Below, piece after piece: positions 9,662-11,063 of a stretch of DNA of 24,794 nucleotides (within the stretch, counting starts at the first letter, position 1; the number at the start of each line of letters is the position of its first letter). Position numbers and translations under genes: made by a program. The notes below the pieces were generated by a model. It made no database searches, was not told the DNA's origin, and saw only the letters and a program-made list of their open reading frames with translations. The DNA comes from a virus, in the IMG/VR virus record IMGVR_UViG_3300036850_000061, positions 1 through 24,794 of that record; one strand, given 5' to 3'.

Positions 9662-10200
9662 ACGTGGGCGATCTGCCGCCATGCCCAGAGTGCGGGGGGA
9701 CGGTGACGCCGAAGAGCGGAAACGTCGGGGGTCTCCAGCGACGGTACTGCACCATCCGGTGCCGGGACCGGGCGGCCTATCGACGTCTACAACGAACGCC
9801 CGAGCAACGAGCCCGGCGACAGGAACGTCAGAGGGAATATCAGCGCCGGCTTCCCCCGAAACACAAGAGAGCCTACTGGTTGTGGGCCAAGTATCGATTG
9901 ACGACCGCCGCATACGACGAGATATTCGTAGGGCAGGGCGAGGGTTGCGCACTTTGTGGGGCTGCACCTGGTGATCTGCGGTCACTCGCTGTGGATCATG
10001 ATCACACATGTTGCCCTGGTTCCCGATCCTGCGGCAGATGCGTCCGGGGCCTGCTGTGCACGCTGTGCAACAAAGGATTAGGACAGTTTTACGGCGACCC
10101 CGCCCGCCTACGGGCCGCAGCCGACTACATCGAAGGGTATCAGCGTCGGGCGGATCGGTCGGCCGACGTCCAAGCATCAACGGAAGGAGCACACGTATGA
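9652..10200 (+). CDS. Endonuclease VII-type recombination nuclease
   Basis: A 182-aa protein: N-terminal zinc knuckle CPECGG with CTIRC (about 11-35), a basic helical linker, then CALCG, AVDHDHTCCPG, CGRCVRGLLCTLCNKGLGQF. This is the signature of phage recombination endonuclease VII (His-Asp/His-Asn active site inside a zinc-bound beta-beta-alpha fold). It resolves branched DNA before packaging. ATG at 9652 overlaps the end of the polymerase gene; a GTG at 9664 with GGGAG five bases before is an alternative and shortens it by four residues. Confidence 0.88.
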   Translation: MGVDVGDLPPCPECGGTVTPKSGNVGGLQRRYCTIRCRDRAAYRRLQRTPEQRARRQERQREYQRRLPPKHKRAYWLWAKYRLTTAAYDEIFVGQGEGCALCGAAPGDLRSLAVDHDHTCCPGSRSCGRCVRGLLCTLCNKGLGQFYGDPARLRAAADYIEGYQRRADRSADVQASTEGAHV

Positions 10201-11063
10201 GTCGATGGCGCATGGCCCTGGCGGGCGTGCTGGCCGGGCTGGTAGCGATGATCGGGGCCGCCGGCCCGGCCGCAGCACACACGCTCTACTCGGGGTCACA
10301 GGTCTGGTACATCTGGCCTCGGACCAGCCCGAACTGGTCGCACTCGCACGCAGGGATCTGGCATTGGGACACGAAGCTGTGGGACGTCAGCACCGGGGGC
10401 GCATACGGTAACGTTCTGACCGTGGCGCTGGCGGTGTACACCTGCCCGGCCGACGCCGCCTGCACCGACGCTTGGCGGGCCTGGGTCGCCGACGCCGTGT
10501 CGGCGTGGAACACCGCCACCGAGGACCGGGCGGTCGGCACCCGACGGATCAAGCTGAACCCAATCGTCACCGGCCCGTTGCCGGGCTACCCGAACCCTTG
10601 CGGCGACTGGTCGCAGACGCAAGGCCTGGGCCGATCGTACGTCGTGCCGATCTGCTTCGACCCGGGGGGTCCGGGCAACAACGGCGAGTTCGGCCCGTCG
10701 TTCGAATGGTCGAACAACGCCTACCACCTGAAGGGCGGGAAGGTCACGGTCTTCGGCATAGCGGCCGGGACGACCTGGCGCCTGTTCAACACGATCCGGC
10801 ACGAGCTCGGCCACGTGCAGGGGCTTGGCCACCGGGGCGCCTACGGGCACGAGGACCCGTACGCCGGGATGTACCACGCGTACGACCCGACGGGCTCGAC
10901 CGAGGTCATGGGCTTCGGGAACGACTGGACGGCGGTCTACCCGGACCTGGCGGACGTGCGCTCGGTGATCTACCTCAACGGCGGGGCGCTCCTCCTGAGC
11001 GGGAGCTTTTACTGCTGGAACGACCACAGCGGTTGGTGTCCGGGGTACAACTCGGTCGGCTAA
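10197..11063 (+). CDS. Exported metzincin-type zinc metalloprotease
   Basis: A 288-aa protein with a clear signal peptide: MSRWRM, a hydrophobic core LAGVLAGLVAMIGAAG and an AAA-H cleavage site near residue 27. The active site is HELGHVQGLGH at 202-212, the HExxHxxGxxH zinc motif of metzincins, with a probable Met-turn EVMGFG near residue 238. Cysteines (83, 89, 135, 153, 273, 281) could form disulfides. No known phage lysis enzyme has this form. Substrate unknown: cell-surface proteins, competing agents or host matrix are possible. It ends the early operon, with ATGA overlap with endonuclease VII and a strong GGAAGGAG site. Signal peptide and zinc motif are certain by eye; biological role is inference. 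Confidence 0.85.
   Translation: MSRWRMALAGVLAGLVAMIGAAGPAAAHTLYSGSQVWYIWPRTSPNWSHSHAGIWHWDTKLWDVSTGGAYGNVLTVALAVYTCPADAACTDAWRAWVADAVSAWNTATEDRAVGTRRIKLNPIVTGPLPGYPNPCGDWSQTQGLGRSYVVPICFDPGGPGNNGEFGPSFEWSNNAYHLKGGKVTVFGIAAGTTWRLFNTIRHELGHVQGLGHRGAYGHEDPYAGMYHAYDPTGSTEVMGFGNDWTAVYPDLADVRSVIYLNGGALLLSGSFYCWNDHSGWCPGYNSVG

Follow-up and report, generated by a model that had tools for sequence, protein, structure and literature searches.

A candidate exported metzincin protease gene at the end of a phage replication operon

The last gene of the rightward, replication-gene block of a phage genome encodes a 288-residue protein (ORF 10197–11063, + strand) that we regard as probably a metzincin, which is a judgement and not a computed value. 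The window analyzed here is the whole of record IMGVR_UViG_3300036850_000061, a single virus record that comprises 24,794 bases at ∼68% GC; the open reading frame, its HELGHVQGLGH motif, and its position in the operon are read directly from it. We favor, with moderate confidence, the fuller statement that this protein is a metzincin zinc endopeptidase that is exported through Sec before the late genes act, cleaves the host surface, and aids lysis; the lysis role, which is drawn by analogy, is the weakest step in this statement.

The genes of the window lie in two converging blocks. The leftward block includes the terminase large subunit, portal, prohead protease, major capsid, head-tail adaptor, tape measure, and tail genes, and its far end carries an amidase gene and a holin-like gene. 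The rightward block includes an RNase H-like exonuclease, a PD-(D/E)XK-type exonuclease (7272–7922, +), a family A DNA polymerase with 3'-5' exonuclease motifs (7919–9661, +; the frame is open from 7736 and the start is inferred), endonuclease VII (9652–10200, +; Pfam Endonuclease_7, E = 2.1e-20), and finally the protease gene. As an earlier note on this DNA had described, the start codon at 10197 (ATG) and the stop codon of endonuclease VII (TGA) overlap as ATGA, and a ribosome binding site, GGAAGGAG (10182–10189, +), is 7 nt upstream. The GC contents of the three codon positions (0.60/0.55/0.91) are like those usual for coding genes in this 68% GC contig, and this is therefore very probably a real gene. 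The same note held that the gene is expressed with the replication genes and not late; the operon layout fits, and co-expression is what the position would predict. Between the converging operons, directly 3' of the protease stop codon, there is a strong hairpin with a weak U-tract (11082–11117, +; region 11064–11130, z = -4.25), a possible terminator; although it is absent from the calls of the terminator scan, termination at this site is likely, as a prediction.

Several other features of the window are of note. A conserved element of ∼45 to 60 nt is present in six copies and in both orientations (2434–2494, 3261–3318, 8063–8120, 11895–11952, 16696–16756, and 21374–21434), with 36 invariant columns and the consensus CCCTGGGTCGnnnGGGnnnGGAGGCCGGGCGYTAACGGGGTCCA; at least three copies are intergenic and one is in frame within the DNA polymerase ORF, between the exonuclease motifs. 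It is possibly an operator, a promoter, or a mobile palindrome-like element. A collagen-like Gly-X-Y repeat protein (21470–22006, −; Pfam Collagen, E = 5.8e-6, slightly below the cut-off) is encoded in an unusual place, between the portal and prohead protease genes. There is a hint that the host is actinobacterial, which comes from the endonuclease VII relatives in actinobacteriophages (38 to 56% identity), the high GC content, and the partial likeness of the amidase to those of Streptomyces phages. The amidase endolysin (1081–1743, −) also carries a C-terminal GRVGYYILASDGSVYAFGAAPYEG segment, which we take to resemble repeats of actinobacterial (Acidimicrobiia) surface proteins and which may be a further clue to the host.

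The anatomy of the product is that expected of an exported metzincin. Residues 1 to 27 have the appearance, on inspection by eye, of a textbook Sec-type signal peptide (MSRWRMALAGVLAGLVAMIGAAGPAAA followed by H, with predicted cleavage between AAA and H; 10197–10277, +), in agreement with the earlier note, and its hydrophobicity score is comparable to those of other exported viral metzincins. The predicted mature form is ∼28.4 kDa with a pI of ∼6, is rich in tryptophan, and contains six cysteines, an even number, as in exported proteins. Residues 28 to 82 contain no cysteine and there is thus no cysteine switch; a cysteine-switch pro-domain defines the vertebrate MMPs, not all bacterial matrixins. 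The zinc-binding and catalytic motif HELGHVQGLGH occupies residues 202 to 212 (10800–10832, +) with all of its catalytic residues intact, and the EVMGFG sequence previously proposed as the Met-turn is present around M238 (VMGFG, residues 237 to 241; 10905–10919, +). A second candidate methionine, M225 (AGMYH), is at +13 from the third histidine, with M238 (EVMGF) at +26; the Met-turns of other metzincins align with M225 in one of our alignments (A1) and with M238 in another (A2), and we favor M238 because of the layout of the C-terminal helix that follows. This candidate helix, DLADVRSVIYLNG (residues 250 to 262; 10944–10982, +), and the sequence AVSAWN (residues 100 to 105; 10494–10511, +) fit the matrixin signatures DxxxIxxLYG (C-terminal helix) and AxxxWN (helix A), respectively, a similarity that is not diagnostic.

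The motif is improbable by chance, since shuffling the protein 200,000 times produced it 4 times (analytic expectation, 4.4e-5), and only one other HExxH is present across the six frames of the window. The search against metzincin families that the earlier note had proposed gave a divided result: the best Pfam matches are all to metzincins (M10, E = 0.0057; two M12 reprolysin models; and M66), but none passes its cut-off, the matrixin model (PF00413) scoring 17.0 bits against a gathering cut-off of 24. The sole NCBIfam match is to archaemetzincin (E = 0.17) and there are zero PHROG matches, so that no model in Pfam, NCBIfam, or PHROG reaches its cut-off. Masking the 11 motif residues abolishes every Pfam match, and shuffled sequences in which the motif is kept match metzincin families in six of nine cases, with best E values of 0.005 to 0.14 within a range of 0.005 to 0.2. 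The Pfam support is therefore that of the motif and is not independent evidence, and we rejected the E value of 0.0057 as proof of homology. Outside the motif, the helix-A pattern A[VIM]xxW[NST] occupies the equivalent position, upstream of the motif, in 8 of 63 viral metzincin candidates, and it is rare in other viral ORFs, with 2 occurrences among 1386 control slices; shuffling of this Trp-rich protein yields an AVSAWN-type signature 1.4% of the time; the layout of M238 followed by DLADVRSVIYLNG recurs in 447 of 200,000 shuffled tails (∼0.002). The figures for both helices are flattering, because the patterns were chosen post hoc, with the protein already seen. A single-sequence AlphaFold2 model is of poor quality, with a mean pLDDT of 34 and a low-confidence helix at 196–206; in this model HELGH falls within a helix preceded by a strand, a helix, and a strand, as in metzincins, at a confidence too low to settle the fold.

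Could this be an exported phage protein of some other fold in which HELGHVQGLGH arose by coincidence, or an enzyme that is no longer active? We consider this very unlikely. The confinement of the homology signal to the motif, the orphan nature of the sequence, and the fold model with a pLDDT of 34 would all be consistent with it, but the chance of the motif is ∼4e-5, the protein also has a signal peptide, a Met-turn, and two helix signatures elsewhere in its sequence, and its catalytic residues are all intact. The motif, the signal peptide, the helix-A and C-terminal-helix signatures, and the operon position together support the reading as an exported metzincin-like protease of a phage replication operon. 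The earlier proposal to this effect is upheld in part, as a probable reading, with every family model scoring below its cut-off.

The protein is an orphan in the collections searched. Using tblastn against 50,697 phage records and 72,556 plasmids, no relative was found even at an E value of 1; back-translated scans of IMG/VR viral contigs and GTDB genome contigs, which sense close relatives only, were likewise negative, and a genome-contig scan for RHELGHVQGLGH gave no match and reached no cellular source. Among 45 records with related portals, many of them fragments, an M10 domain of this kind was found in none, so the gene looks accessory. The sole weak PF00413 match among these 45 (HEFAHTRGMRH, in L127) was rejected, as it is not a metzincin of this type. 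Metzincin-like sequences are themselves present in IMG/VR: the pattern HELGHVxGLGH occurs in 47 contigs, and three other patterns add more, the matches including a few that are out of frame or due to chance. Many of the 29 proteins in alignment A1 have signal-like N-termini, and 23 of the 29 match M10 at an E value of 1e-3 or better; some of the contigs may be host DNA. Short metzincins that lack a signal peptide (MSLIERELVNHTQSFLGKNDVLTYGF...; L065, L078, L086, L088, L090, and relatives) also form a family that recurs in many IMG/VR contigs; these are perhaps virion or intracellular proteases.

An accessory gene that is last in its operon, at the junction of converging operons, is at a common site for cargo, and the protein could be the product of a "moron" gene of bacterial origin, an exported protease whose action is of benefit to the host or breaks down extracellular matrix in the habitat. 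We think this improbable: neither an integrase nor a repressor is present among the ORFs scanned, leaving lysogeny unsupported, the GC content at third codon positions matches that of the phage genes, and the genome-contig scans found no cellular relative.

Returning to the favored reading, what follows is inferred throughout, from export and fold through zinc binding and proteolysis to the timing, the substrate, and the benefit. The infected cell would export the product via Sec, as its predicted signal peptide suggests; His202, His206, and His212 would bind zinc, with Glu203 as the general base and M238 as the Met-turn; and the enzyme would most likely cleave host envelope or surface proteins outside the membrane. 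Given the place of the gene at the end of the replication operon, synthesis and export of the enzyme probably precede the action of the late genes. The likeliest benefit would be a weakened envelope that the phage holin and amidase lyse more efficiently, by analogy with the Mtz-Tim system of Listeria. Assistance in lysis is the one role with experimental precedent, and it was absent from the roles proposed in the earlier note.

We considered whether the gene is associated with a lysis cassette, and rejected this; the holin-like and amidase genes (58–1743) are on the opposite strand and ∼9 kb away, unlike the arrangement of prophage mtz-tim. Among the alternatives, the one with the best positional argument is that the exported metzincin acts in superinfection exclusion or defense, shaving phage receptors or rival proteins from the infected cell, since the gene is grouped with those for replication and is apart from holin and amidase. 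The same anatomy would serve, and the position suits a need soon after entry better than a need at lysis, but neither a receptor nor a precedent was identified; the sequence does not separate the two roles, and we regard exclusion as unlikely.

The nearest exported ORF on the + strand (11654–11890) is small, encoding 78 aa with a signal peptide and a mature form of 55 aa (pI 4.05; 4 Cys). It has its own ribosome site, lies between two leftward tail genes, has no Pfam or PHROG match, and looks like an independently transcribed cargo gene. There is a slim chance that the protease represents a new metzincin family of a poorly known phage group, acting in surface remodeling before lysis, and that it may pair with this small protein in a manner like Mtz-Tim but unrelated in sequence.

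If the enzyme is active, it would add to the known cases of phages that export a protease to act at the surface, here one tied by its position to genome replication and not to the lysis cassette. Such a case makes it testable whether phages use proteolysis to prepare the host envelope, or to seal it, ahead of holin and endolysin, and because the sequence is far from known metzincins, a structure would extend the superfamily.

The claim that secreted metzincins are rare in phages needs softening, as they are uncommon but have been encountered in Lactobacillus phage 3-521, in many IMG/VR contigs that encode signal-peptide matrixins, and in Listeria prophages as Mtz-Tim (PMC8235301). Listeria Mtz is a phage-derived secreted metzincin that likely cleaves its partner, the lipoprotein Tim; together they sensitize cells to phage lysis and increase virion release ∼5-fold, both being needed and catalytically dead Mtz having no effect (PMC8235301). 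Compared by their features, Mtz and the ORF 10197–11063 product share a Sec signal peptide, an extended HExxHxxGxxH/D motif, a Met-turn, and an association with phages. They differ in that tim comes after mtz, and prophage mtz is often downstream of holin-lysin, whereas ORF 10197–11063 follows endonuclease VII in a replication operon without a lipoprotein partner; what comes after it is the hairpin and a convergent tail gene, and not an adjacent exported partner of the Mtz-Tim type.

The clearest viral case is that of Lactobacillus phage 3-521, an isolated lytic member of the Herelleviridae, which encodes a Zn-dependent protease (YP_009844019.1) next to a nucleotide kinase gene. This M10 matrixin has a signal-like N-terminus and the same layout of helix A (AIKSWN), HELGHVLGLGH, Met-turn, and C-terminal helix (DLASVKQLYG), but passes the M10 cut-off (40.6 bits, 3.1e-10) where the ORF 10197–11063 product scores 17 bits, and its histidine-to-methionine spacing is short in contrast to 26 residues here; no overall sequence similarity between the two was found. 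With matrixins in general (PF00413 / MEROPS M10) our protein shares HELGH..GL.H, the helix-A tryptophan, and the C-terminal helix layout, and it differs in falling below the cut-off, in the long loop before the Met-turn, in the lack of a cysteine switch, and in its tryptophan content. Exported proteins encoded by four viral contigs (L128 and L130 to L132), which we take to be gametolysin-like (M11-like), also have a VMG Met-turn at least 20 residues after the third histidine, but they are 430 to 640 aa long and otherwise different in sequence, and their EYGDxxDVMG is absent from ORF 10197–11063; we rejected kinship with them, as only the layout is shared. Phage-encoded exported metzincins are thus already known but uncommon, and because similar phage proteases are known, ORF 10197–11063 is a divergent new example and not a new kind of system.
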